DNA of 45,887 nucleotides from Campylobacteraceae bacterium. GTDB taxonomy: Bacteria; Campylobacterota; Campylobacteria; Campylobacterales; Campylobacteraceae. Shown one piece after another: positions 996 through 45,887 of the stretch (positions within the stretch are counted from its first letter, which is position 1; every line of letters starts with the position of its first letter). The DNA lies in assembly GCA_031274495.1 (NCBI GenBank), contig JAISQB010000052.1:1-45887 (forward strand). The letters are read 5' to 3'. Under the pieces are notes generated by a model. The model saw nothing but the letters and a program-made list of their open reading frames with translations, searched no databases and was not told the origin of the DNA. A program made the translations under genes and the position numbers.

Positions 996-3900
996 ATGAG
1001 AAAAATTATATATATTAAGACCATACTTGCTGTGTTTTGTTCGCTTTTTATAACGACAAATGTTTATGCAGGAACGGCAAGTAAAGTTAACTTTGATTAT
1101 GACTGCAACTCTTTATATATCGGGCTTTATAATGGCTTGGTAGATAAGGCGACTATCAATCCTACCACCGGAGCCATTACCGCGATGAATAGTATATATA
1201 CTATAAGTGGGGATAGCTACCTTATCAGTGCGACAACTATAGCTTTAGGACCTTATGATAATGCTGATGGTCCTTTGACTATGTATCATTGGGGATGGAA
1301 TAATATATGGAATAGCTTGGGGGCACATATACAGTATTTTCAAAAAAATCAAACAAAACGAGATGCCATATATGTAGCGACAGGCACTACCAGTAAACCT
1401 ACTAACTCTCAAGCAGAGGAATTTCCGCCGCCAAGGGTAGTCAACTCTTTGCGCAATTATTGGTCGGGAGGGGAGGTCAACCAAAAGAGCGGCGAGCTTT
1501 ACCTCTCCAGCGGTGAAGATGATGCTCTTGATAAAGATAGATCCGGCAGTTGCGGAAGTCCGTATTGTTATTTTCGTATGATGATATTTCATCCCAAAAC
1601 AAAAAAATATGTTAAAAGCAGCGCAATGTCGCCCTCGACGCCAAGCGATTATACTCCCGGATATGTGGCTTCGGATATGGCGATAGACGCGGAGGGGAAT
1701 GCGTATATATTGGTTTCGGATTCTGACGGCGACAAGACAAGTCGTGTATATTGGATCATTAAAGTTAAGCCGGGAAAAGATGGTGAATCGTGGAAGTATC
1801 AGAGAATAAAAAAGATTACTTTTCCCGCAAAAACATCCGACCTTTTGGAGTGGTGGGGAATGTCTTTTTTAAATGGCAAATTGTATGTAGGTCACGCCAA
1901 TAGCCAGATAATTTATATGGTAGATCCTCTTACGGGTGCCGTCAACGAGGCATATAAATATTCCAAGACGATATACGACTTCGCCAGTTGCCAAATGGCG
2001 CCGGCTATCAACGGTAAGGTCTATTACGATAAAGATGGCGATGGCACCATAAGCGATGAGGAAAAAAACGCGAACGGCATAGCGGATGTAACCGTTCAAG
2101 TCTACAGCAAAGATAGAGGCTATCTGGGAGAGGTGCTAACAAGCGGCAACGGCGAGTATAGCTTGATATTGCCCCAGACCAAAGGCACGCTATATGTAAG
2201 GCTTAAAAGACCGCAGATAAATGGCGTGAACGCTCAGCAGACTTGGGCAAGCGGCGGGCGATATGAGTGGAGAGGCGGCGCCTATAACCACGGCAATAAC
2301 ACCGTAACGCCCCAGTGTCGCGACGGGATAAATAAGATAGATATAACACCACCGCATAAAGGCACATACGATGGAGATATAAGAGAGACTTACGCGACTT
2401 CCTGCTACGGTGCGAGAGCTGATGGCAGAGATCTATCGTCCGATAATATAAACGGCGCCAACTACTATACTATGATAGAGATGCAGACCGATAGAGCCAG
2501 TATCGAGGCAAATTTCGCCCTTGGTCCGGTAGACAGAAGCGACGCTCCAAACGGCGCTATATCCAAAGTAAACTATAACTTCAAGGAAGCCTCCCACTCG
2601 ATGGCAAAAGGTATCTATTTGGGTGACAATGTCAGTGACGATACCGCCTCTATGATGAATAATGCAAATGCCGATACGGATAAGCACGACGACAGCGTCA
2701 AGGTAAGACAAAAAGACAATCAAACCGCCTCGTGGGAGCCCCTCCAAAATTTTACCTTCACCAATAAAATCACTTATACTTTTAATGTCACCATCAAAGA
2801 GACCAACGCCAATGGCTATCTAAACGCGTGGATAAGTTTGCAAGACGGAAAAGCCGCCAATACGGCAACTTTTGATGAAAAGAAAAAGATAGCCGACAAT
2901 ATCAATGTCTCCGCCGACAAAACTTGCAGCGGCGGTATATGCTATGTGCTGTTTGATTACACGGTGCCCAATATCTCAAGCGGCATAGACGCCAAAAACA
3001 GATCAAAAGCGTATTCGAGATTTAGATACAGCTCCGTAAATGTCAACGGTATGAAGCCCTACGACGAACCAAAAGACGCCGCTTACTGGAATAACAACCC
3101 ATGGGTAATCGATGGCGAAGTGGAAGACTACAAATTTGACTATCTTTACATCAAAGACCCCGGACTTCCCGCAGGAGATGCGATAATTGTAAATGAAAGA
3201 TTTAACAAAGGGGTAGGCGAAACTCTCAAGTCTATTGATTCAGACAACCCGGACTTAGCTCTATACACGCAAGTGGCGGGCGAGCCGTTTAATGTCAAAT
3301 TTGTCTATCAGGTAGATAAAAATGTTTCAAAACTTGCCACTACGGATAATAACGTAAGTTTTACCGTAGATCTCGTTGAAGTTTCGGATGAATTTGTCGG
3401 TAGTTATACGCTCAAAGACAGCTGCGAAGCCCTTCAGGTAATCGAGCCCAATGTAAAGCACGGCAATATCAACGCCAACACTGCAGCAGTTTTTCCTCTA
3501 AACGGTATATCTACGAATAACGTATCTAAAAAGGCGACTTTTAGAGTTACATTCGGCTACGACGAGGCAACGCAAAACAAAACCTCTTGCTCTCCCGATA
3601 TGTTTGCCATCCGTCCGGCTAAATTTGAGATGGGCGGCATCAACGGCAATTTGGTAGGCGGCAAAGAGCACAACGGCAAGCTAAAAGCCGTAGATAAAAG
3701 CGGACGCACTACCGAGTCATACAATCAAACCGCCTCCCATCTAAGCTACAAAGACGCCAATCTCACCACCCCCGCCTCGTGCGATACAGCCCAGATAAAT
3801 ACGACGATCGACGATACGAATTTTTGGGTAAAGCCCGTAGGCTTCATAAAAGGCACAACAGATATGTCGGTACAGTACAACAATGTCGGCAATCTAAACT

Positions 3901-5057
3901 TTGCCCTCGCAGACAGCGATTGGACGCAGGTAGATAGGACGACGAGAGGAGACGACTGCGAGGCAAACAGTTCATCAAATGCCCACAGCTCATCAAAAGT
4001 CGGCTGCGATATAGCAAGCGACCAAAAAGCCTTCAAGTTCATACACGACAACTTTAACGCTACTGTGACGATAAGCAACGCACTTGGAGGAAATTTTACA
4101 TATCTGGCTTATGATAAAGATATGACGGCTGATGTGACTACGAGTATCATAGCAAAACTTGCCAACAACGATACGGCTACAAATTATCACCAAGGCTGCT
4201 TTGCGGAAGATGTTGAGTATAAATTTCGTCTTGACAACGGCAACTTTACAGGCTATGGAAAAAGAGACGAGCATCCAAAACGAAGAATTAAATTTTTTGA
4301 AAAAGACACTACAGCAAACATAACCGGCAACAACGACCGTCGTGACGGCACGGGAGCATTTAACATAAAAGAGGGGAACTTTGCAAAAGGAGAGGCAGGG
4401 GTCGTAAAATTTGGCTTCAACTTCGGACGCAATATCTCTAAAGGTGAAAATCCATTCACCGCCTCTTTGTCCAACTTTGCCGTAAAAGACGGCGACATAC
4501 ACGACAAAAATGTCAATAAAACGCTTGTCGCTATCCAAGGAAGCGATATCACATTCTTTTACGGCAGAGCCTTTATAGACAATTATGAGGGAAAAGATCC
4601 GATAGCCGTCAAAGTAAGATATGAGCTCTTTTGTCAGGGTGATTGCAATAAAACCGCTTACGCGCTAAGCTTCTCCGATATAAACATAGGCACCACCTCG
4701 TTTTACCTCAACAAAGAGCACAACGACGCAAATCAAGGACAAATTAAAAGCTATACTCCAGTAAAGGCTGCAATGATAAGAGGAGTATCGGCACCCGCAA
4801 ACGGCATAGGCAACATAACCCTCATAAATTGTTCCACCTGCTCCGCCCCATACGCCGACACGATATACGCCCAACCCAACAACTGGCTGATATACAACCC
4901 ATCAAACCCCACCGCGTCAGATTTCAGCTTCACAGTAAAATTCATAGGCACCCCCGGCGGATGGGCAGGCAAAGGAGAGACAAGAAAAGACAACACCACC
5001 GGCGGCGTCATAGAAGCAACCCCCGGCAATAGGACTAAATTGAAGATGGATTGGTGA
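996..5057 (+). CDS. Large secreted adhesin-like protein (MshQ-like, paralogue 1)
   Basis: A 1353-aa protein with a signal peptide of about 25 residues ending VYA, so it should leave the cytoplasm. Residues about 30-335 carry short propeller-like strands such as GNAYILV and GKLYVGH. At about 345-360 an EF-hand-like loop DKDGDGTISDEE sits at the start of an SdrD-B/Cna-B-like module. A GEVEDY motif near 705 suggests a GEVED domain, and CSPDMFAIRPAKF near 868 recalls the DUF6701/MshQ type of protein. The C-terminus ends in a conserved Asp-Trp. It is collinear with the protein at 5970-10091 and with the partial gene at 45258-45887. The ATG follows AGAGGA. No pilin gene follows it, unlike the second copy. 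Function as a pilus-associated adhesin is inferred from the paralogue's context; no exact family is claimed. Confidence 0.85.
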   Translation: MRKIIYIKTILAVFCSLFITTNVYAGTASKVNFDYDCNSLYIGLYNGLVDKATINPTTGAITAMNSIYTISGDSYLISATTIALGPYDNADGPLTMYHWGWNNIWNSLGAHIQYFQKNQTKRDAIYVATGTTSKPTNSQAEEFPPPRVVNSLRNYWSGGEVNQKSGELYLSSGEDDALDKDRSGSCGSPYCYFRMMIFHPKTKKYVKSSAMSPSTPSDYTPGYVASDMAIDAEGNAYILVSDSDGDKTSRVYWIIKVKPGKDGESWKYQRIKKITFPAKTSDLLEWWGMSFLNGKLYVGHANSQIIYMVDPLTGAVNEAYKYSKTIYDFASCQMAPAINGKVYYDKDGDGTISDEEKNANGIADVTVQVYSKDRGYLGEVLTSGNGEYSLILPQTKGTLYVRLKRPQINGVNAQQTWASGGRYEWRGGAYNHGNNTVTPQCRDGINKIDITPPHKGTYDGDIRETYATSCYGARADGRDLSSDNINGANYYTMIEMQTDRASIEANFALGPVDRSDAPNGAISKVNYNFKEASHSMAKGIYLGDNVSDDTASMMNNANADTDKHDDSVKVRQKDNQTASWEPLQNFTFTNKITYTFNVTIKETNANGYLNAWISLQDGKAANTATFDEKKKIADNINVSADKTCSGGICYVLFDYTVPNISSGIDAKNRSKAYSRFRYSSVNVNGMKPYDEPKDAAYWNNNPWVIDGEVEDYKFDYLYIKDPGLPAGDAIIVNERFNKGVGETLKSIDSDNPDLALYTQVAGEPFNVKFVYQVDKNVSKLATTDNNVSFTVDLVEVSDEFVGSYTLKDSCEALQVIEPNVKHGNINANTAAVFPLNGISTNNVSKKATFRVTFGYDEATQNKTSCSPDMFAIRPAKFEMGGINGNLVGGKEHNGKLKAVDKSGRTTESYNQTASHLSYKDANLTTPASCDTAQINTTIDDTNFWVKPVGFIKGTTDMSVQYNNVGNLNFALADSDWTQVDRTTRGDDCEANSSSNAHSSSKVGCDIASDQKAFKFIHDNFNATVTISNALGGNFTYLAYDKDMTADVTTSIIAKLANNDTATNYHQGCFAEDVEYKFRLDNGNFTGYGKRDEHPKRRIKFFEKDTTANITGNNDRRDGTGAFNIKEGNFAKGEAGVVKFGFNFGRNISKGENPFTASLSNFAVKDGDIHDKNVNKTLVAIQGSDITFFYGRAFIDNYEGKDPIAVKVRYELFCQGDCNKTAYALSFSDINIGTTSFYLNKEHNDANQGQIKSYTPVKAAMIRGVSAPANGIGNITLINCSTCSAPYADTIYAQPNNWLIYNPSNPTASDFSFTVKFIGTPGGWAGKGETRKDNTTGGVIEATPGNRTKLKMDW

Positions 5058-5969: not shown

Positions 5970-8900
5970 ATGGGTGCTTTAAAAATTATGGGCGTTAAAG
6001 GGTTTACGCTAAGGGTTATGTTTGCGATAGTCTGTTCGTTTTTGTTTGCGACAAATGTTTATGCTGCAAAAGCGACGGCAAGCGCTAATCCGAATTTTGA
6101 TTACGATTGCAACTCTTTATACTTTGGTATGTACGAGAGTGTAGCAGTAGATAAAGCAACTATTAATCCGATTACCGGTGATATTAGCTCTATAAGCAGA
6201 ATGTACACTATAAGTGGACCTACCGGTCTCTCCGCTACAACAACTCTCGCTTTAGGACCTTACGGCAGTCCCGATGGGGTTTTGACTATGTATCACTGGT
6301 ACTGGGGTGATATATGGTCGTCAACGGCACTCAGAGGATTGCATCCATTTTATACACAAAGAAATCAGGCAAGCAGAGAAGCCATATATGTAGCGACAGG
6401 CACGGTTAATTCAGCTACTACAGCCGCTCAAGCAGATGTTATTCCACGACCGACCAGTAACGCATATCGTTACTGGTCGGGAGGCGAAGTTAATCAGAAA
6501 ACAGGTGAAATATATTTTTCCGGCGGCGAGGACGCTACTGTCGCCGAAAGTTCGACAGGCAGTTGTAGTTCGTACTATTGTGCATTTCGCTTGATGATAT
6601 TTGACCCTGTAACAAAAACTTCCAGAGAGAGCGGTAAGCTTGTGGCTGCAACATCAAGAGATTTTACGCCCGGATATGTCTCTTCCGATATGGCAATAGA
6701 CGCAGACGGAAATGCATATATATTGGTTTCAAACGCTCGCGGTTTAACAAATACTAAAGATTATTGGCTTGTTAAAGTTGTCCCGGGAGCCAGTGGTAGT
6801 GGGTGGAAATATCACAGAGTGAAACAGATCAGTGGACTTCCTGCTTCTACCAGATGGTACGGAATGGCATTTTTAAATGGTAAATTATATCTTGGAAGAG
6901 ACGAAAATCATGAGAACCTCTATATAGTTGATCCCCTTACAGGAGGCGGAAGAAAAATCTTGGATAGAGTAGGATATTATATCTACGACCTTGCTACCTG
7001 CCAAATGGCGCCTGTTATCAACGGTAAAGTCTATTACGATGAGAACGGAGACGGTCAGTTAAGCTCTGCCGAAAAGAGCGCGAACGGTATAGCAGATGTA
7101 ACGGTTCAAGTATATAGCCAAACCAAAGGCTATCTTGGAGAGGTGCTGACAAGCGGAAGCGGTGAGTATAGCTTGATGATACCCGAGACAAGCGGCACGC
7201 TCTATGTAAGACTTAAACAGCCGCAGATAAACGGCTCAAACGCTCATCAGACATGGGCAAGCGGCGGACGATATGAGTGGTCGGGAAGCATAAACAGACA
7301 AGGTAACAATACAGTAACGCCCGTATGCCACACCGGTATAGTCAAAAAAAATGAGAATACAATAAAAGGGGTGCCGTATCCCGGAGATACAAAATACACT
7401 TACGAGACTTCGTGCTCCGGCGCGAGAGCTGACGGCATAGATCTGTCATCCAATAACATAAACGGCGCCAACTACTACACTACGATAGAGATGGAGACCG
7501 ATAGAGCCAGCATTGAGGCAAATTTCGCCCTTGGTCCCGTAGATAGAAGCGACGCTCCGCATGGTGTTGTGTCGGGTAGGGATTATGGCTTTAGAGAGGC
7601 TGCTCACTCAATGGTAGGCGGCGTTTATTTGGGTGATGGCGTCACTGCCGATACTTTTTCAATGACAAATGATATAACCGCCAATACGGATAAAAATGAC
7701 GACGGCATCAAAGTAAAGGAGAAGGACAACAAGAGTGTGCCGTGGAGCAATCTCCAAAATTTTATCTTCACTAACAACATAGCCTATACTTTCAATGTAA
7801 CCATACAAGATAACAACACCAACGGCTATCTAAACGCATGGATAAGCTTAAAAGCGGGAGAGTTCGCCAACGTTACGACTTTCAACGCAAAGATAGCCGA
7901 CAATATCAATGTCTCCGCCAATAAAACATGTGATGATGATGTGTGCTATGTGCTGTTTGACTACATGGTGCCCAATGTCTCAAGCGGGATAGATCTCACC
8001 AGCAACAAATCAAAGGCGTATTTGAGATTTAGATATAGCTCGGTAAGCGTTGTTAGTATGGACTCTTATGACAAGCCAAGAGAAGATAGCTATTGGAATA
8101 CCCATCCGTGGGCGATTGACGGCGAAGTGGAAGACTATAGGGTCGAGTACTATTATGTCAGAAACCCGGGACTTCCCGCGGGAGATGTGATCATTGTAAA
8201 TGAAAACTTTAATGGTAAAGAGGGCGATAGTATCCTTCCCGTTAAGCCGAGCAATGATAAATTGGCTCTATATACGCAAGTGGCAAATCAACCCTTTAAT
8301 GTGAAATTTGTCTATCACAAAGACGGAAAGATAGCAAAACTTGCCACTGTGGAGGATAATGCAAGCTTTGTTGTGAGTATCGTTGAAGTTTCGGACAAAT
8401 ACGTTAATGATTATTATAAGACAGACGAATTCTGCGAAGCTCTTAATGTAACAATCGAGCCCGATGTATGGAAAGGCAATCTCAACTCCACCTCAGACGC
8501 GGTTTTTACTTTGAATGGTATAACTACAGGCAATGTATCCAAAAGGGCAACTTTTAAAGTTATATTTGGCTATGACGAGGCAGGGCAAAACAAGACTGCT
8601 TGCTCTCCGGATGTGTTTGCCATCCGTCCGGCTGAGTTTGTGCCAAAAGGTTTGAGCTCTCCTTTAGTAGGCGGCAAAAAGAATGACGGCTCCATAATCG
8701 CAGGTGATGCTAAGGGCATTACTACCGTTACATACAATCAAAACGCCTCTTCTCTAAGCTATAAAGACGGCAATCTCACCACTCCTCCTTCATGCAACAC
8801 AACCCAGATAAATACGACCGTCGACCATACTAATTTTTGGGTAAATAACACAGACTTTAGATATGGCGAAGCAGCTTTGTCGGTACAGTACGACAATGTC

Positions 8901-10091
8901 GGCAATGTAAACTTTACCATCATCGATAGTGAGTGGACGCAGGAAGACCGGATAAGTCCGACAAGAAACGACTGCAATGTAAACCGTTCGGAATATACCC
9001 ACGACGCGGCTAAGAAAGTCGGCTGCGATATAGCAAGCGGCAGGCAGGCTTTTAGGTTCATACACGATAACTTTAATGCGACCGTAAAGATACAAAACGC
9101 ATTTGCGGGAGGATTTACATATCTATCTTACGATCAAAATATGACGGCTGATGTGACTACGCATATCGCGGCAAATCTGGCGAACAACAAGACGGCTACG
9201 AATTATCATAAAGGCTGCTTTGCAAATGATGTCAGGTATGAGTTTGGAATGACAGGCGATAGAGATGATCTTCCGGGCTATGGAGCAAGAGATGGAATTC
9301 CCAAAACAAGAGTTAAGTTCTTTGAAAAAGACAATACGGCAAGCGTAACCGACAATAATAGCGGTGATGATGGCATAGGAATATTTGTCGTAGGAGAAGG
9401 AAACTTTACGAACGGAGTTGCGAATAATGTCCTGTTTGGCTTTAACTTCGGACACAATATCTCAAAAGGCGAAAATCCGTTTAATACCTCTTTGAGTAAT
9501 TATAGAGTACACGATGTTACCGGTATAAGCGACGTGGATGTCACCAATAAGACATTTGCCACCTTAGAAGACGGTAATCTTACATTCTTTTACGGCAGAG
9601 CATTTATAGACAACTACGAGGGAGAGAGCGCGATAGATGCCCATGTAAGATATGAGCTCTTTTGTGAATCGAGTGGTTGCAATAGAAGTGATTACGGTAT
9701 AAGTTTATCTGATGTAAATATGGGCACCAGCACATTTTATCTCAATAAAAGGCACAACAGTACGGATCAAGGACGGATTAATGGTTATACTTCCGTAGGA
9801 GGCGGTACAAATGTCGGAGGAGTGCCGGCACCTGTCGGCGGTATAGACGGTATAACTCTCACAAATAATTCAGGCTCTACGCCATATGCAGATACGATTT
9901 ACACACGGCCCAATACATGGCTCGTGCATGATAAGTCAAATCCCGCCGCTACGAGATTTAGCTTTACGGTGAAATTCATAGGAGGACCGGGCGAATGGGC
10001 AGGAAAGGGAGAGTCGAGAGCAGGCAATGTAACCGGAGGCGTTATAAATGCGATTCCGGGAAATAAAACCAAAACAAAGGCAGATTGGTAA
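5970..10091 (+). CDS. Large secreted adhesin-like protein (MshQ-like, paralogue 2), first main gene of the minor-pilin operon
   Basis: A 1373-aa protein; the ATG at 5970 is chosen because AAGGAG (5958-5963) lies 6 nt upstream, rather than the in-frame TTG at 5955. The signal peptide ends near VYAA (residue about 33). It is collinear with the first adhesin throughout: propeller-like N-terminal part, EF-hand-like DENGDGQLSSAE near residue 355, GEVEDY near 716, CSPDVFAIRPAEF near 882, and a C-terminal GNKTKTKADW. The stop codon is 2 nt before the start of an MshD-like prepilin gene, and two further prepilin-like genes follow with overlaps. This is the clue that the protein is exported with, or displayed by, a type IV pilus, as MshQ and PilY1 are thought to be. 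Calcium binding by the EF-hand loop is plausible but unproven. Confidence 0.85.
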   Translation: MGALKIMGVKGFTLRVMFAIVCSFLFATNVYAAKATASANPNFDYDCNSLYFGMYESVAVDKATINPITGDISSISRMYTISGPTGLSATTTLALGPYGSPDGVLTMYHWYWGDIWSSTALRGLHPFYTQRNQASREAIYVATGTVNSATTAAQADVIPRPTSNAYRYWSGGEVNQKTGEIYFSGGEDATVAESSTGSCSSYYCAFRLMIFDPVTKTSRESGKLVAATSRDFTPGYVSSDMAIDADGNAYILVSNARGLTNTKDYWLVKVVPGASGSGWKYHRVKQISGLPASTRWYGMAFLNGKLYLGRDENHENLYIVDPLTGGGRKILDRVGYYIYDLATCQMAPVINGKVYYDENGDGQLSSAEKSANGIADVTVQVYSQTKGYLGEVLTSGSGEYSLMIPETSGTLYVRLKQPQINGSNAHQTWASGGRYEWSGSINRQGNNTVTPVCHTGIVKKNENTIKGVPYPGDTKYTYETSCSGARADGIDLSSNNINGANYYTTIEMETDRASIEANFALGPVDRSDAPHGVVSGRDYGFREAAHSMVGGVYLGDGVTADTFSMTNDITANTDKNDDGIKVKEKDNKSVPWSNLQNFIFTNNIAYTFNVTIQDNNTNGYLNAWISLKAGEFANVTTFNAKIADNINVSANKTCDDDVCYVLFDYMVPNVSSGIDLTSNKSKAYLRFRYSSVSVVSMDSYDKPREDSYWNTHPWAIDGEVEDYRVEYYYVRNPGLPAGDVIIVNENFNGKEGDSILPVKPSNDKLALYTQVANQPFNVKFVYHKDGKIAKLATVEDNASFVVSIVEVSDKYVNDYYKTDEFCEALNVTIEPDVWKGNLNSTSDAVFTLNGITTGNVSKRATFKVIFGYDEAGQNKTACSPDVFAIRPAEFVPKGLSSPLVGGKKNDGSIIAGDAKGITTVTYNQNASSLSYKDGNLTTPPSCNTTQINTTVDHTNFWVNNTDFRYGEAALSVQYDNVGNVNFTIIDSEWTQEDRISPTRNDCNVNRSEYTHDAAKKVGCDIASGRQAFRFIHDNFNATVKIQNAFAGGFTYLSYDQNMTADVTTHIAANLANNKTATNYHKGCFANDVRYEFGMTGDRDDLPGYGARDGIPKTRVKFFEKDNTASVTDNNSGDDGIGIFVVGEGNFTNGVANNVLFGFNFGHNISKGENPFNTSLSNYRVHDVTGISDVDVTNKTFATLEDGNLTFFYGRAFIDNYEGESAIDAHVRYELFCESSGCNRSDYGISLSDVNMGTSTFYLNKRHNSTDQGRINGYTSVGGGTNVGGVPAPVGGIDGITLTNNSGSTPYADTIYTRPNTWLVHDKSNPAATRFSFTVKFIGGPGEWAGKGESRAGNVTGGVINAIPGNKTKTKADW

Positions 10092-10093
10092 CG

Positions 10094-10798
10094 ATGAAAA
10101 AAAGAGCTTTTACGCTTATAGAACTTGTGATAACGATAGTTATCGTGGGCATAGTGTCGCTTAGTTTTCCGATGATACTTATGCAGTCCAATAAAAATAT
10201 AGCGTTTGCGACACAGCAAGAGGCTATCTTGGCAGCTAAGACATACATAGGAACGATACTCTCTTATCCGTGGGATAATAATATTTACACTATGGGAGCT
10301 GGTGTTAAAGGGATGATACTTGAGACACGCAGTCCGGCTTCAGATAACGAGTTTAACAGGGTGGTGGGCACTAACCTTCGCGTGGGCAATATAGACGGTA
10401 GCAATAGAAGGAGGCTTGTGGATAATACATCTGCCAATCCATTTCCTAACGCTACTATCCCTGCCACTCCCAGTCTCAGCCCGATAGATATAAACGGCTT
10501 TAACCAAGCTACCCAACACTTAAACATAGCCGCTGACGATATGGACTATATCTTTAGCCTTACGCTCACGCCCACGATATCTTATGTGAGCGATGCAGCC
10601 ACCGATCCATACGCGAACGATGTAGTAAGATTTGAATTGAGCACAGGCGGCGTGGGCGGACCAACAAATATCAAAATGATATCCATGCATGTCAACAATA
10701 CCGACCCGTCCACCCCCAATGTCAATATCACACTTAGAGCATACTCCGCCAATATAGGCGAAATTGAATTATTAAATAAAGCCGGTGGAGGTTGGTAA
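10094..10798 (+). CDS. Type IV prepilin-like minor pilin, MshD-like
   Basis: A 234-aa protein starting MKKRAFTLIELV, a class III signal: short basic leader, prepilin peptidase cleavage before Phe, Glu at mature position 5, then a hydrophobic helix of about 20 residues. The -1 residue is Ala rather than the usual Gly, which prepilin peptidases often tolerate. The segment following the helix (QQEAILAAKTYIGTIL) resembles MshD/PilV-type minor pilins. The ATG at 10094 is 2 nt after the adhesin stop, so translation is probably coupled. The stop TAA overlaps the next ATG by one base. Role inferred: pilus initiation or tip complex with the large adhesin. Confidence 0.8.
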   Translation: MKKRAFTLIELVITIVIVGIVSLSFPMILMQSNKNIAFATQQEAILAAKTYIGTILSYPWDNNIYTMGAGVKGMILETRSPASDNEFNRVVGTNLRVGNIDGSNRRRLVDNTSANPFPNATIPATPSLSPIDINGFNQATQHLNIAADDMDYIFSLTLTPTISYVSDAATDPYANDVVRFELSTGGVGGPTNIKMISMHVNNTDPSTPNVNITLRAYSANIGEIELLNKAGGGW

Positions 10799-11712
10799 TG
10801 AAAAAAAACGGATTTACTATGGTAGAGCTTATATTGGTCATCATCATATTTGGCATCATCGCCACCATAGGTGCGAGTATGATAGCTACGATGTATCAAA
10901 ACTACATAAGAGCGAGGATTATAAACTATCTGCAAGCCCAAAGCGACATCACACTGCAACAGATAGCCAAAAGGCTTCAATACCGCATAAAAGAGACAGC
11001 TGTCGCCAAGATAAGCAGCAGTCCCGATATATTGCCGTTATACAATAGCGGTGTCACTGATAAATATGATGTGATACAGTGGATAGGATATAGCAATGAA
11101 GCGATGCTAACTCCTATAGTAACAGTCCCGGGGTGGAGCGGTTTTATAGACTTGAACGATGAGATAAACACTAATAGTACGAACAAACGACTCTCAACTC
11201 CCGGCAGCGACCTCGCTTTTGCAAACACTATCATCAGCGCACTTACTAATAACGCAGTTACTATGAGCAGTGGGGGAGTTGCGCTGATGTTTAAAGGTCT
11301 CCCGGTGTCGGCTGTCGATCCGGTTACGGGATACGGTTGGAATGCAACAGTCGCAGATGATGATTATGTAGTAAGAGTAACCGCAAGCACCAATAATGTG
11401 TTTAATATAGTAGGAGACGCTCCCGACACCATCTACGAACAGTACTATCTCGCTCATACGGCTTACGCGATAGCGCCTGAAGGTACAAATCCAACAGACT
11501 TTAACTTGACGCTAAGATACAACTTTCAGCCTTGGCTTGGTCAAAGATACAACGATACAAATACCAAAAGCGCTCTGTTGGCGACCAATGTGAACCTATT
11601 TAGGATTCGTCAGGTAGGCTCTACGATTCGCCTCAAACTCTGCTTGCATGACGGCAACAACAGCGGAATAGGGGACTATGTCGTTACTTGTAAAGAGGAG
11701 GTCGTGCTATGA
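10798..11712 (+). CDS. Type IV prepilin-like minor pilin, MshO-like
   Basis: A 304-aa protein beginning MKKNGFTMVELIL, with Gly at -1, Phe at +1, Glu at +5 and a long hydrophobic helix rich in Ile. The following amphipathic segment, containing DITLQQIAKRLQYRIKET, resembles the MshO/PilW group of larger minor pilins. The start overlaps the preceding stop (TAATG at 10796-10800). The stop overlaps the next gene by four bases (ATGA at 11709-11712). The product should be inserted in the inner membrane and processed by a prepilin peptidase encoded elsewhere. Assignment to MshO rather than PilW is by general resemblance only. Confidence 0.8.
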   Translation: MKKNGFTMVELILVIIIFGIIATIGASMIATMYQNYIRARIINYLQAQSDITLQQIAKRLQYRIKETAVAKISSSPDILPLYNSGVTDKYDVIQWIGYSNEAMLTPIVTVPGWSGFIDLNDEINTNSTNKRLSTPGSDLAFANTIISALTNNAVTMSSGGVALMFKGLPVSAVDPVTGYGWNATVADDDYVVRVTASTNNVFNIVGDAPDTIYEQYYLAHTAYAIAPEGTNPTDFNLTLRYNFQPWLGQRYNDTNTKSALLATNVNLFRIRQVGSTIRLKLCLHDGNNSGIGDYVVTCKEEVVL

Positions 11713-12143
11713 GAAAGGGATTTGGACTTATAATGGCTATAGCGTTTATCGTTTTGGTGGCTACTATCGGCGCGTTGGCGCTCTCTTTTTCGACGCAGAC
11801 AAGCAAACAAACGGGCGATGTCTATCTTAGAGCGCAAGCCGAACTTTTGGCAAGAAGTTCCACAGAATACGCCCTTTTGGCACTTTCGGCTCATAATATT
11901 ACAGCTACGAGTAATTGTATCAACACGCTAAATGTAGCTCACAACAACGATTTGTTTGCTATCACTATGACGATGCAATATATCGGCAACGGCTTACCGA
12001 GCGGATGCAATGTGCTCGGTAACGGCGCGGACAGTATAGACACAGTTGACTCAAATGTAACCATACTGATAGACACCGTCGTAGAGACAAGCGCCGGCGT
12101 AGAGCCCATACGCATACATAGGCGCACACTCCAAAAACTGTAA
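11709..12143 (+). CDS. Prepilin-like protein, MshP/PilX-like
   Basis: A 144-aa protein starting MRKGFGLIMAIAF. A Gly-Phe cleavage site and hydrophobic helix are present, but mature position 5 is Met, not Glu. Loss of Glu5 is usual in MshP, PilX and GspK-like minor pilins, which cap or initiate the fibre. The stretch AQAELLARSSTEYALLAL fits the amphipathic helix seen in MshP. It is the last gene of the operon: 53 nt separate it from the hpf start, and a promoter lies in that gap. The order adhesin, D, O, P differs from the Vibrio order mshD-O-P-Q in placing the large protein first. Confidence 0.75.
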   Translation: MRKGFGLIMAIAFIVLVATIGALALSFSTQTSKQTGDVYLRAQAELLARSSTEYALLALSAHNITATSNCINTLNVAHNNDLFAITMTMQYIGNGLPSGCNVLGNGADSIDTVDSNVTILIDTVVETSAGVEPIRIHRRTLQKL

Positions 12144-12196: not shown

Positions 12197-12712
12197 ATGA
12201 ATTTAAGTATTTCAGGCAAACAACTTGAATTGACCGACCCTATCAAAAACTACATCGAAGATGCGGTCGACGCGTTAAATAAGTACAATCTCGACACCAT
12301 CTCCACGCGAGTCATCGTCAACGCGGACGAAAAGAACGGCAAAAAGGGCTTTAATGTTGAATTTGTGATCAATCTCGCCAAAAAAGAGACTATCGTCATA
12401 AGGCAAAAAGATAAAGACCTCTACGCGGCTATAGACTTAGCAACCGAGCGAGCCAAAAAAGTATTCCGCCGCACACACGATAAGTTAACAACCCAAAAAG
12501 GCAAAGTAAAAGACGACCAGACAGAAAATATTGTCATAGACGGCGCGGACGAGATAGTACCGATGGAGCTCGAACTATACAAGCCGTTAGAGATTGAAGA
12601 GGCTTTGCAAAAACTCCAAGACTCTTCGTTGCAATTTTATGTATTCAACGACATGGACGCCAAACTCCGCGTCATCTACAAAAGAACGGATGGAAAATTC
12701 GGACTGTATTAA
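12197..12712 (+). CDS. hpf: Ribosome hibernation promoting factor, long form
   Basis: A 171-aa protein. Residues 1-100 match the S30AE fold (MNLSISGKQLELTDPIKNYI, then KKETIVIRQKDKDLYAAID). After a linker, residues about 118-171 form the C-terminal dimerisation domain of long HPF (VPMELELYKPLEIEEAL, ending DGKFGLY). Long HPF binds the decoding region of the 30S subunit and joins two 70S ribosomes into a 100S dimer in starved cells. The gene is monocistronic: own promoter upstream and two terminators downstream. Length and domains are complete. Confidence 0.93.
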   Translation: MNLSISGKQLELTDPIKNYIEDAVDALNKYNLDTISTRVIVNADEKNGKKGFNVEFVINLAKKETIVIRQKDKDLYAAIDLATERAKKVFRRTHDKLTTQKGKVKDDQTENIVIDGADEIVPMELELYKPLEIEEALQKLQDSSLQFYVFNDMDAKLRVIYKRTDGKFGLY

Positions 12713-12929: not shown

Positions 12930-14381
12930 GTGAAAACTATTTTAAAATATTTTATAAGCGTGGTGCTATTTGCAGGTGTCATTTCGGCCGGAGATGCTGA
13001 AAAGAGCATAGATGCTTATGAAAAAGGCGACTATGTGCGAGCGGCTAAACTTTTTAAAAAATCTTGCGATAACGGAGAGTTTTTGGGCTGTAACCGCTTA
13101 GGCTCAATGTATCATATCGGTGAAGGTGTAACGCAAGATTATGCCAAAGCGGCGGAAGCTTATAAAAAAGCATGTGATGGAGGATATAGCGCAGGCTGCA
13201 TCAATTTGGGCATAATGCACGAAAAAGGTAACGGTGTAACGCAAGATTATGCCAAAGCGGCGGAGTTTTATAAAAAAGCTTGCGATAACGGATATATTCG
13301 CGGTTGTTCTGATTTGGGGCTAATGTACGAAAGCGGTAACAACATAGAGCAAGACTATGTTAAAGCAGCGGAAGTTTACAAAAAAGCTTGTGATGGAAAG
13401 GATGCGTTAAGTTGCAGCTCTTTGGGCGTAATGCATATAGAGGGTAACGGCGTAGAGCGGGATTACATTAAGGCGGCGGAGTTCTTTCAAACATCTTGCG
13501 ATGGCGGAGAGTTTTGGGGATGTAGCCTTTTGGGCGCAATGTATCATGGCGGCGAAGGTGTAATGCAAGATTATACCAAAGCGGCAGCACTCTACAAAAA
13601 AGCTTGCGACGGCGGAAATATAAATGGTTGTATCAATTTGGGTGTTTTGCATGGTAATGGCGATGGCGTAGAGCGTAGCCATGCCAAAGCGGCGGAGCTT
13701 TTTCAAAAAGCTTGCGATGCAAAAGATGACCAAGGTTGTGACAATTTAATTACGGTGATAGAGCTCTATAAAAAGGCTTGCAATAGGGGAAGCACGGGCG
13801 GTTGTATCAATCTGGGTGTTTTATATAGTAACGGCGATAGCGCAAAACGCGACTACTCTAAAGCAGCAGAAGCTTACAAAAAAGCTTGCGAGGAAGAAGA
13901 TGCTGTGGGTTGCGGCAACTTGGGCTATATGTATGGAATCGGCGAAGGTGTAGAGCAAGATTATGTTAAAGCGGCAGGATTGTATAAAAGGGCTTGCGAC
14001 GGAGGAGACGCGGGAGGTTGTAACAATTTGGGGTATATATACACAAATGGTTACGGCATAGAACAAGATTATGTTAAAGCAACAGAGCTTTACAGACAAG
14101 GCTGCGACGGCGGATATAATGGAAGTTGCAGCAATCTGGGCTATATGTATGCAAATGGCTACGGTGTAAAGCAAGATTATGTTAAAGCAACGGAGTTTTT
14201 TAGGCAAGCTTGTGATGGTGGATATAGCGGGGGTTGCAATAACTTAGGCACAATATATGAATATGGGCGCAGTGTTAAAAAGGATATAAAACAAGCTTTT
14301 GAATATTACGGCAAGGCGTGCGATTTGAAATTGCAATTAGGTTGCGAAAACCACACGAGATTGAAAAGTAAATACCGATAA
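12930..14381 (+). CDS. Exported Sel1-repeat cysteine-rich protein (Hcp-like), paralogue 1
   Basis: A 483-aa protein with a GTG start preceded by GGAG. The N-terminus VKTILKYFISVVLFAGVISA is a signal peptide. The rest is about thirteen Sel1-like (TPR-type) repeats of roughly 36 residues, each with a Cys-x7-Cys pair (for example KACDGGYSAGCINLG) and motif YxxGxGVxxDYxKA. This is the pattern of Helicobacter cysteine-rich proteins, where each pair forms a disulfide between the two helices. The repeat near residues 267-285 is shortened: KACDAKDDQGCDNLI joins the next repeat without the usual loop. Sel1 proteins mediate protein interactions; some Hcp proteins bind penicillin. A substrate cannot be named here. 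A longer paralogue lies at 40082-42052 on the other strand with a matching leader. Confidence 0.88.
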   Translation: MKTILKYFISVVLFAGVISAGDAEKSIDAYEKGDYVRAAKLFKKSCDNGEFLGCNRLGSMYHIGEGVTQDYAKAAEAYKKACDGGYSAGCINLGIMHEKGNGVTQDYAKAAEFYKKACDNGYIRGCSDLGLMYESGNNIEQDYVKAAEVYKKACDGKDALSCSSLGVMHIEGNGVERDYIKAAEFFQTSCDGGEFWGCSLLGAMYHGGEGVMQDYTKAAALYKKACDGGNINGCINLGVLHGNGDGVERSHAKAAELFQKACDAKDDQGCDNLITVIELYKKACNRGSTGGCINLGVLYSNGDSAKRDYSKAAEAYKKACEEEDAVGCGNLGYMYGIGEGVEQDYVKAAGLYKRACDGGDAGGCNNLGYIYTNGYGIEQDYVKATELYRQGCDGGYNGSCSNLGYMYANGYGVKQDYVKATEFFRQACDGGYSGGCNNLGTIYEYGRSVKKDIKQAFEYYGKACDLKLQLGCENHTRLKSKYR

Positions 14382-40081: not shown

Positions 40082-42052
40082 TTATTGCAAGCTTTTTTTG
40101 TAGAGTTGTTCCGCTAAAGCGCGGTTTTGTCTCACACCTTTGCCGTCTTCATACATTATGCCTAAATTGCCGCAACTTGTAGCATCTCCACTCTCGCAGC
40201 CTTTTTGAAAAAGCGCCGCCGCTTTAGCGTAGTTTTGTTGTACGCTTTTGCCGTTGTAATATATGGAGCCCAAGTTATTGCAGCTTTGAGCGTGTTTATT
40301 GTCGCAAGATTTTTCATAAAATTGGATAGCTTTTGTATAGTCTTGTTCTACGCCGTAGCCGTTCGCGTATATGAAGCCTATATTATAACAACTTCCGACA
40401 TATCCGCCGTCGCAAGCTTTTTGGAAAAGCTCTGCCGCTCTGACATAATCTTGGCTGTTGCCGTCCACATATCTTATGCCCAAATTATGACAACTCACAG
40501 CATATCCGCCCTCGCAAGATTTTTCGTAGAGTTGCACCGCTTTTGCATAGTCTTGTTTTACGCCGTAGCCGTTCGAGTACATTGTGCCAAGATTGTTGCA
40601 GCTTACGACATCTTCACTTGCGCAAGCTTTATTATAGAGTTGCACCGCTTTTGCATAGTCTTGTTTTACGCCCCCTTTGCCCGATTCGTATATTTCGCCC
40701 AAAAGACCACAACTTTGGGCATGATCCTTGCCGCAACCTTTTGTGTAAAACTCTATCGCTTTAGCGTAGTCTTGCGGTACACCTTTGCCCGATTCGTATA
40801 ATTCGCCCAGAGCGCCGCAATTGCCGGCATATCCGCCATTGCAACCTTTTGTATAAAACTCTACCGCTTTTGCATAGTCTTGTTTTACCCCCTCTTTGCC
40901 GTCATTATATATCGCGCCCAAAAAGCTGCAATCCAAAATCTCTCCGCCATCGCAAGCTTTTTTGTATGACTCTACCGCTTTTGCATAGTCTTGTTTTACG
41001 CCATAGCCGTTTGCGTATATTGTGCCCAAGATACTGCAACCCATGATATGCCCGCCCTCGCAAGCTTTTGCGTAAAACTCTACCGCTTTTGCATAGTCTT
41101 GTTTTACCCCCTTGCCGGTATAGTACATGGAGCCTAAGTTGTTGCAACTTTCAATATGTTTCTTATCGCAAGCTTTTTCGTAGAAACCAATAGCTTTTAC
41201 ATAATCTCGCTCTACGCCGTTACCGTTCGCGTATATAAAGCCGGCATCATAGCAACTCTCTATGTATCCACTCTCGCAGCCTTTTTGAAGAAGTTCGGTC
41301 GCTTTGGCATAGTCTTGTCTGTCATAATATATGGAGCCCAAGTTATTGCAGCTTGCAACATGTTTACCCTCGCAAGCTTTTTCGTAGAATTTGATAGCTT
41401 TGGCACGGTCTTGCTTTACGCCCTGACCGCTTGCGTACAGCTCGCCCAAATTGCCGCAGCTTGTGACATCTCCGCCATTGCAGCCTTTTGTGTAAAGCTC
41501 TACTGCTTTGGTATAGCTCTGTTTTACCTCTTTACCATGTTCGTATATAGCGCCCAGCTTGCCGCAATCACCGACATATCCGCCCTCGCAAGATTTTTTG
41601 TAAAATGCCGTTGCTTTGGCATAGTCTTGTTTTACCCCCTCTTTGCCGTCATTATATATCGCGCCCAAAAAGCTGCAATTCAAAGCCTCCCCGCCGTCAC
41701 AAGCTTTTTTGTGCAACTCTACCGCTTTGGCAAAGTCCTGTTTTACGCCGCGCCCACTTGCGTACATCACGCCCAAGTTGCCGCAGCTTACGATATCGCC
41801 GCCACTACAAGCCTTTGCGTAAAGCTCCGCCGCTTTTGAGTAGTTTTGCTTTATGCTTTTGCCGTTGTCATACATCGTGCCCAAAAAGCTACATCCCAAA
41901 ACTTCGCCATCATCGCAAGATTTTTGGAAAAGTTCCACCGCCCCCTCGTAGTCGCTGTTTTGGTAAGCCGCTAAGCCAACTTCAACAACTCCTGCAAAAA
42001 CCGTACCCGCGAGCAGAGCCGCACTTATGAAATATTTTAAAATAGTTTTCAC
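40082..42052 (-). CDS. Exported Sel1-repeat cysteine-rich protein (Hcp-like), paralogue 2
   Basis: A 656-aa protein; the GTG at 42052 is chosen over the ATG at 42064 because the paralogue at 12930 has the same GTG, GGAG and following sequence. The signal peptide VKTILKYFISAALLAGTVFA is nearly identical to the paralogue's first 20 residues. About 17 Sel1 repeats follow, each with a Cys-x7-Cys pair such as KSCEGGYVGDCGKLG. Two repeats are shortened in the loop (GSIYYDRQDYAKA and RYVDGNSQDYVRA). A 61-nt exact direct repeat within the gene suggests recent internal duplication. Probably periplasmic or secreted, stabilised by disulfides. Partner unknown. Confidence 0.88.
   Translation of the reverse strand: MKTILKYFISAALLAGTVFAGVVEVGLAAYQNSDYEGAVELFQKSCDDGEVLGCSFLGTMYDNGKSIKQNYSKAAELYAKACSGGDIVSCGNLGVMYASGRGVKQDFAKAVELHKKACDGGEALNCSFLGAIYNDGKEGVKQDYAKATAFYKKSCEGGYVGDCGKLGAIYEHGKEVKQSYTKAVELYTKGCNGGDVTSCGNLGELYASGQGVKQDRAKAIKFYEKACEGKHVASCNNLGSIYYDRQDYAKATELLQKGCESGYIESCYDAGFIYANGNGVERDYVKAIGFYEKACDKKHIESCNNLGSMYYTGKGVKQDYAKAVEFYAKACEGGHIMGCSILGTIYANGYGVKQDYAKAVESYKKACDGGEILDCSFLGAIYNDGKEGVKQDYAKAVEFYTKGCNGGYAGNCGALGELYESGKGVPQDYAKAIEFYTKGCGKDHAQSCGLLGEIYESGKGGVKQDYAKAVQLYNKACASEDVVSCNNLGTMYSNGYGVKQDYAKAVQLYEKSCEGGYAVSCHNLGIRYVDGNSQDYVRAAELFQKACDGGYVGSCYNIGFIYANGYGVEQDYTKAIQFYEKSCDNKHAQSCNNLGSIYYNGKSVQQNYAKAAALFQKGCESGDATSCGNLGIMYEDGKGVRQNRALAEQLYKKSLQ
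40872..41679. repeat. 61-nt exact direct repeat inside the Sel1 gene
   Basis: Bases 40872-40932 and 41619-41679 are identical. The offset of 747 bp equals 249 codons, about seven Sel1 repeats, so recombination between them would remove or add an in-frame block. Both encode SFLGAIYNDGKEGVKQDYAK. Confidence 0.85.
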
Positions 42053-42064
42053 CCAAACTCCCAT

Positions 42065-45257: not shown

Positions 45258-45887
45258 CTACCAATCTACCTTCATTTGAGTTTTATTACCCGGGATTACA
45301 TCTATGACGCTGCCGGTTACATTGCCTTTGCTCACACCCCCCTTTCCTGCCCATCCGCCAGGGACTCCGATGAATTCCACTTTAAAGCTTGAGTTTGTGG
45401 CGGTGGGATTTAGCTTATCGTGTATGAGCCATGTATCAGGCAAAGTGTGAACCGTATCGGCATGCGGTGTAGAGCCTGAAATATTTCTGAGAGTTATATT
45501 GGATATGCCGTTTCTAAGGAGTATTGATGTTGTATTAATTTCCACACTTTTACCTTTTTTGTTAGGAATATATCCGGTAGAGATAGGGATATATCCTTGA
45601 TCCATACTGCTATGCTTTGAATTAAGATAAAAGTCAGTATAGTCCATATTTATATCAGAAAAGCTTAGACTATAAGTAGTTTTGTTGCAGGTACGACAAA
45701 AGAGTTCATACCTCACTTCGGCGCTTATCGGGCTCTCTCCTTTGTAGTTATCTATAAAAACTTTACCGTAAAAGAATGTGAGGTTGCCCCCTTCCATGGT
45801 GACATTTGCCTTATGAACGTTTAAATCAAAGATATCTGTATTGTTTACGGCAAAATCAGCCAAAGAGGTGCTAAAGGGCTCCTCGCC
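45258..45887 (-). CDS. Large secreted adhesin-like protein (paralogue 3), C-terminal part only
   Basis: The reading frame is open from the stop at 45258 to the window edge; the first residues seen (GEEPFSTSLADFAV) align with GENPFNTSLSNYRV of paralogue 2, so the gene starts outside the window. The 209 visible residues match the ends of the other two: GNLTFFYGKVFIDNYKGE, SLSFSDINM, DTWLIHDKLNP, VPGGWAGKGG and final GNKTQMKVDW. A TTG at 45863 is inside the gene, not a start. It is oriented opposite to paralogues 1 and 2. Confidence 0.85.
   Translation of the reverse strand, partial: GEEPFSTSLADFAVNNTDIFDLNVHKANVTMEGGNLTFFYGKVFIDNYKGESPISAEVRYELFCRTCNKTTYSLSFSDINMDYTDFYLNSKHSSMDQGYIPISTGYIPNKKGKSVEINTTSILLRNGISNITLRNISGSTPHADTVHTLPDTWLIHDKLNPTATNSSFKVEFIGVPGGWAGKGGVSKGNVTGSVIDVIPGNKTQMKVDW

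Follow-up and report, generated by a model that had tools for sequence, protein, structure and literature searches.

The MSHA pilus of Vibrio cholerae retracts through PilT, and its putative adhesin is MshQ, whose loss lowers surface MSHA (PMC7096442). A survey of 2019 already listed MSH systems from Epsilonproteobacteria; the mandatory genes of the MSH pilus model include mshL, mshE, mshG, mshM and mshA, and a single locus is usual but not mandatory (PMC6668835). Another closely related system is the DNA-uptake machine of Campylobacter jejuni, encoded by the cts operon, which is ctsRDPXEF (PMC10893306).

We analysed a window of 45,887 nucleotides, which is contig C42 of a 1.8-Mb Campylobacteraceae genome (97 contigs, 99% complete). 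At positions 5970-12143 of the forward strand there is an operon of four genes, whose Msh names were given here from models, gene order and profiles and not by direct comparison with the Vibrio Msh proteins. The first gene, Q (5970..10091), encodes a putative MshQ-type secreted adhesin of 1373 aa, recognised by its ORF, the homology of its C-terminal module and synteny. Its N-terminus is a hydrophobic Sec signal whose last residues are VYA. After a 2-nt gap comes D (10094..10798, 234 aa, MshD-like minor prepilin), which overlaps O (10798..11712, 304 aa, MshO-like minor prepilin) by 1 nt, and O shares an ATGA overlap with P (11709..12143, 144 aa, MshP/GspK-like prepilin). The first-pass annotation had described a 1373-aa secreted protein followed by three prepilin-like genes, and we verified these ORFs with their coordinates, gap and overlaps. 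The conserved right-hand neighbour is hpf (12197..12712, +), a ribosome hibernation factor by sequence, which is thought to lie outside the pilus. Just past hpf a cysteine-rich secreted protein with Sel1-type repeats is encoded (12930-14381, +), and another one is found at 40082-42064 on the minus strand.

Regarding the three small proteins, D and O carry Gly-1, Phe+1 and Glu+5, and both passed the cut-offs of Pfam N_methyl and NCBIfam TIGR02532, their likeness to named pilins being chiefly N-terminal. P has a prepilin-like N-terminus with Gly-1 and Phe+1 and lacks Glu5, as GspK-type pilins do. The GspK model matched P alone weakly (E 0.006), and it matched 13 of the 15 members of the P family, with a best E of 4e-5. 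These matches of D, O and the P family agree with the earlier placement of the small proteins in the type IV filament superfamily. O was not detected in plasmids by tblastn.

We compared 80 named loci from Campylobacteraceae MAGs, Sulfurospirillum, Sulfurimonas, Arcobacter, Nitratiruptor and Campylobacter showae. Beside O, D was found in 78 and P in 79 of them, hpf lay downstream of P in 65 of the 77 assessable loci, and a Q-module protein was encoded directly upstream in 58 of 69. Campylobacter showae CC57C, for instance, has the order fliW-Q-D-O-P-hpf. Therefore, a special move of the adhesin to the front in this genome, as the first-pass annotation had supposed, is not supported, because most loci of the phylum start with Q. 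Its supposed enlargement is not supported either, since Q-module proteins of the phylum commonly have 1200-2800 aa. That a giant surface protein and unrelated minor pilins are neighbours by chance is extremely improbable given this recurrence in several families and the overlaps and tiny gaps in the window, although in six lineages that place is taken by an unrelated LVIVD-like lipoprotein or lacks a Q. This lipoprotein, of about 340 aa and with propeller-like repeats, replaces Q upstream of D-O-P in deep lineages (L183, L186, L190, L191, L196 and L176); it is fragmentary in L176 and L196 and may be an alternative tip protein. In a rumen Campylobacter sp. MAG, a 2128-aa Q-module protein (L214:7132-13518, minus strand) is encoded immediately beyond the downstream end of proC-D-O-P-hpf and in the opposite direction, which is possibly an intermediate arrangement.

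In six relatives (L226, L228-L231 and L234) the genes for the Q-module protein, D, O, P and a prepilin are followed by I-J-K-L-M-N-E-G in a compact and co-directional arrangement, where G is beyond the stretch in L228 and L234 and I, J or K fall under the detection cut-off in some. Both kinds of system coexist in the genome G195, where L226 holds the compact one and L227 together with L236 the split one, which is orthologous to that of the window. Thus, the contiguity of Q-D-O-P with the assembly genes in six relatives gives good support to the assignment to an MSHA-type pilus. This assignment rests on the relatives because D-O-P and the assembly locus are on separate contigs in the genome analysed here.

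Contig C75 of this genome carries a complete assembly locus with the gene order MshI-J-K-L-M-N-E-G-like. The secretin scored 270.3 bits with the NCBIfam MshL model TIGR02519 (cut-off 250.2), which was its best-scoring model. MshE matched T2SSE (PF00437, 446 bits) and MshEN (PF05157, 64 bits), and the MshG platform protein matched T2SSF (PF00482, E 5e-52). MshM was called from AAA_22, which it matched above the cut-off, from its site between L and N and from its homology to M of the compact operons, rather than with a dedicated MshM model. The MshN-like protein is a TPR protein, and I, J and K were named mainly by position. In addition, we found one A24 prepilin peptidase (contig C19), prepilins that are candidate major pilins in the role of mshA (C59), a PilT-like ATPase (C65) and a separate type II secretion system with its own pseudopilin genes (C95). 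The MSH genes are therefore split over C42, C75, C59 and C19, while relatives have single-locus versions. The search for mshE, mshG, mshL, mshM and a prepilin peptidase that the first-pass annotation had recommended thus located all of them, and since assembly ATPase, secretin, platform and peptidase are present, its proposal stands against the objection of missing machinery. Its reading of the genes as an MSHA-type minor-pilin operon headed by an MshQ-like adhesin is backed by this machinery and by the synteny of the relatives. We also considered D-O-P as pseudopilins of the C95 system and rejected it, because C95 has its own set and the D-O-P genes of relatives are contiguous with MSHA genes. 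Far from other pilus genes, contig C79 encodes two tandem FimT/GspH-like prepilins (L031:203-883 and 983-1627), possibly MshC-like.

Among the MshE copies examined, those of split systems, including that of the window genome (L028:6561-8315), lack the N-terminal RLGxxL motif, whereas those of compact operons (L226, L229, L230 and L231) begin with an RLGxxL-type MshEN motif. Motifs of this type are associated with c-di-GMP binding.

The part common to the Q proteins is the C-terminal stretch of about 640 aa, which reaches the protein end in nearly all the full-length ones. In Q it spans residues 726-1373 (8145..10088, +) and is predicted to be a chain of Ig-like sandwiches, proposed as a pilus-docking stalk. 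When this C-module was aligned with DUF6701 proteins by hhalign, the probability was 100 with an E of 3e-63 over 578 columns. The C-module profile of the window genus alone matched 18 of 20 DUF6701 protein segments (E 3e-22 to 5e-63), and the profile of DUF6701 proteins matched Q at E 1e-64, while shuffled and N-terminal controls gave no match. An iterated profile containing both groups had served to set the limits of the segments, but the two compared profiles were built separately. Pfam DUF6701 (PF20419) matches only 5 of 45 Q homologues, and neither P0001, P0002 (Q itself) nor the C-module alone reached its gathering score. Judged from these profiles, the C-module is a divergent DUF6701/MshQ module overlooked by Pfam, where MshQ, which we take, with the first-pass annotation, to be a DUF6701 protein, was represented by DUF6701 proteins. 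Of 298 sampled genomes, 148 encode the Q-module, which Pfam mostly fails to detect. AlphaFold2 gave an all-beta model of the C-module (pLDDT 86), for which Foldseek returned only generic multi-Ig chains with low TM-scores, and a search of solved structures by sequence found nothing useful for Q.

The head of Q (residues 31-725, 6060..8144, +) probably starts with a beta-propeller. An SdrD_B-like domain (353-419) comes next, and then a region that closes with the motif IDGEVEDY. The propeller-like Foldseek matches cover the first 300 residues or so of a low-confidence AlphaFold2 model (pLDDT 65), and the SdrD_B match (E 3e-4) is below the Pfam cut-off. Of the EF-hand and GEVED-like modules that had been described in Q, the former was not significant (Pfam E 0.64) and the latter was weak and sub-threshold (E 0.024). 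This head is common to genus members and to invasin-like giants of about 3.2 kaa that have no C-module and are not beside pilins. In two genus members the C-module protein encoded upstream of D-O-P bears another head, and the Q heads of compact operons contain LamG (2e-37), H-type lectin (2e-7) or beta-helix (2e-15) domains. As far as domain comparison can tell, the Q family is a case of modular head exchange on a conserved, proposed docking module. The giants themselves (about 3,270 aa; L241:2378-12181 and L242:9368-19222) are followed by a probable outer-membrane protein of about 800 aa, and the copies in the window's own genome, on contigs C83, C62 and C15, run off the ends of their contigs.

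At least four Q-module genes are present in the genome. The first-pass annotation overlooked two in the window, namely a tandem paralogue (996..5057, +; 1353 aa, 61% identical to Q), which has no minor pilins of its own and is a candidate alternative tip adhesin, and a third protein truncated where the contig stops, of which the C-terminal 209 aa remain (45258..45887, -). The fourth, on contig C84, is also partial. We considered gene conversion between the two tandem copies and set it aside, because identity ranged from 47 to 78% per window of the alignment with no sharp block.

The orphan copies away from pilins, the occurrence of the Q head on giants without a C-module and the GspK-like character of P could also mean that Q is a substrate exported via an MSH-type or type II pseudopilus and then released or surface-anchored. 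We regard this as quite improbable, because the C-module sits at the C-terminus of nearly all full-length Q and is the common part of the operon-linked proteins, a Q-module gene opens complete MSHA operons, and the type II locus has its own pseudopilins.

Our preferred reading is that Q-D-O-P is probably the tip operon of a retractable MSHA-type (type IVa-related) pilus with Q as its tip adhesin. From the operon, the homologies, the machinery and the conserved synteny, which are results of the computation, we infer the cap position, docking, ligand, retraction and the loading of orphan Q. The prepilins would presumably be cut by the single A24 peptidase, and D, O and P would form the cap that initiates the filament, with P, which lacks Glu5 like GspK, as the proposed outermost pilin. 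MshI-J-K-L-M-N-E-G of C75 would extend the filament through the MshL secretin, and PilT would probably retract it. Q would cross the inner membrane by Sec and dock with its C-terminal Ig-like chain on the D-O-P cap. If Q is docked in this way, its head would project from the pilus tip. The exchangeable heads may bind a surface or glycan, and the orphan paralogues may load on the same cap.

The strongest rival, which is compatible with adhesion, is that the machine is mainly a Cts-type DNA-uptake (competence) pilus, with Q as an accessory tip protein or a binder of DNA or biofilm matrix and adhesion secondary. Actually, the K-L-M-N-E-G order of C75 is that of ctsR-D-P-X-E-F, and the C. jejuni-like clusters G102 and G046 share order and protein homology with the assembly locus. 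The proteins of G102 have 103, 470, 202, 195 and 519 aa, which match the published 105, 472, 202, 195 and 519 aa of CtsR-D-P-X-E (PMC8308473). Furthermore, the genomes of group g3, called C. jejuni-like on gene features and not by name, have fliW-proC, a ctsT-like prepilin, another prepilin and P; in C. jejuni proC is cj1076 and ctsT is cj1077 (PMC8308473). With the N-terminus removed, the third gene of this trio still matched P (hhalign 87%, E 4e-6) and the second matched O weakly (E 0.001), while ctsT matched D through the prepilin N-terminus only. Relatives also have pilins between uvrB and priA, as Cj0683 precedes priA in C. jejuni (PMC10046745). ComEC is present too, but it is also found in many bacteria that are not competent. 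Against DNA uptake as the main function, the lectin-type heads of relatives point to surface binding, and no Q-module match was found in the 37 g3 genomes that matched MshL, so the DNA-uptake version can do without Q. Therefore, we consider this rival rather unlikely, and the pilus with Q as tip adhesin remains our preferred reading.

We suggest, as an idea that is somewhat less than evenly probable, that one MSHA-type machine of Campylobacterota serves as a platform for several giant adhesins, which are interchangeable on a single D-O-P cap and exchange heads with other surface proteins through recombination, and that C. jejuni Cts is an adhesin-less descendant of this adhesive pilus, CtsT and its two neighbours being D-O-P. 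The first-pass annotation knew of no description of such a pilus in this phylum, which the 2019 survey (PMC6668835) and the matching cts operon order contradict. For the breadth of the Q-module, the Q-first order, the head exchange and the correspondence of D-O-P with ctsT, we found no description in a literature search that covered mainly open-access papers. A widespread hidden family gains a location and a function that experiments can probe, and a connection is drawn between adhesion by the MSHA pilus and DNA uptake in Campylobacter, which are usually treated separately. If this is true, the tip pilins of an MSHA-type system can be studied in ctsT and its neighbours, and adhesins that swap heads are candidates for the choice of surface or host by these bacteria.

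Compared with the known systems, the one described here shares with the MSHA of Vibrio and Shewanella (mshH-Q) an MshL-class secretin, an MshEN-bearing MshE, MshG, MshM, MshN, equivalents of I, J and K, D-O-P minor pilins adjoining a large MshQ/DUF6701-type protein, and a prepilin peptidase encoded elsewhere. However, Q ends the locus there and leads the minor-pilin genes here, and this genome differs in its several contigs, its exchangeable heads and orphan Q paralogues, and an MshE without the RLGxxL of compact systems. C. jejuni Cts (ctsRDPXEF, ctsT, ctsG and ctsW) has the same K-L-M-N-E-G order, a D/O/P-like trio beside fliW and pilins near priA, but in C. jejuni-like genomes the Q module is absent and the counterparts of D and O are divergent proteins of small size. 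The type II secretion system has homologous ATPase, platform, secretin and pseudopilin classes, with P resembling GspK, but this genome encodes it separately on C95, and MshL is the best-scoring model for the secretin of C75. Finally, PilY1/PilC, the type IVa tip adhesins, are likewise large Sec-exported proteins thought to sit on a minor-pilin tip complex and have a probable beta-propeller. The likeness seen is one of layout. In Q the propeller forms part of the N-terminal head, and docking is proposed for the Ig-like chain at the other end.
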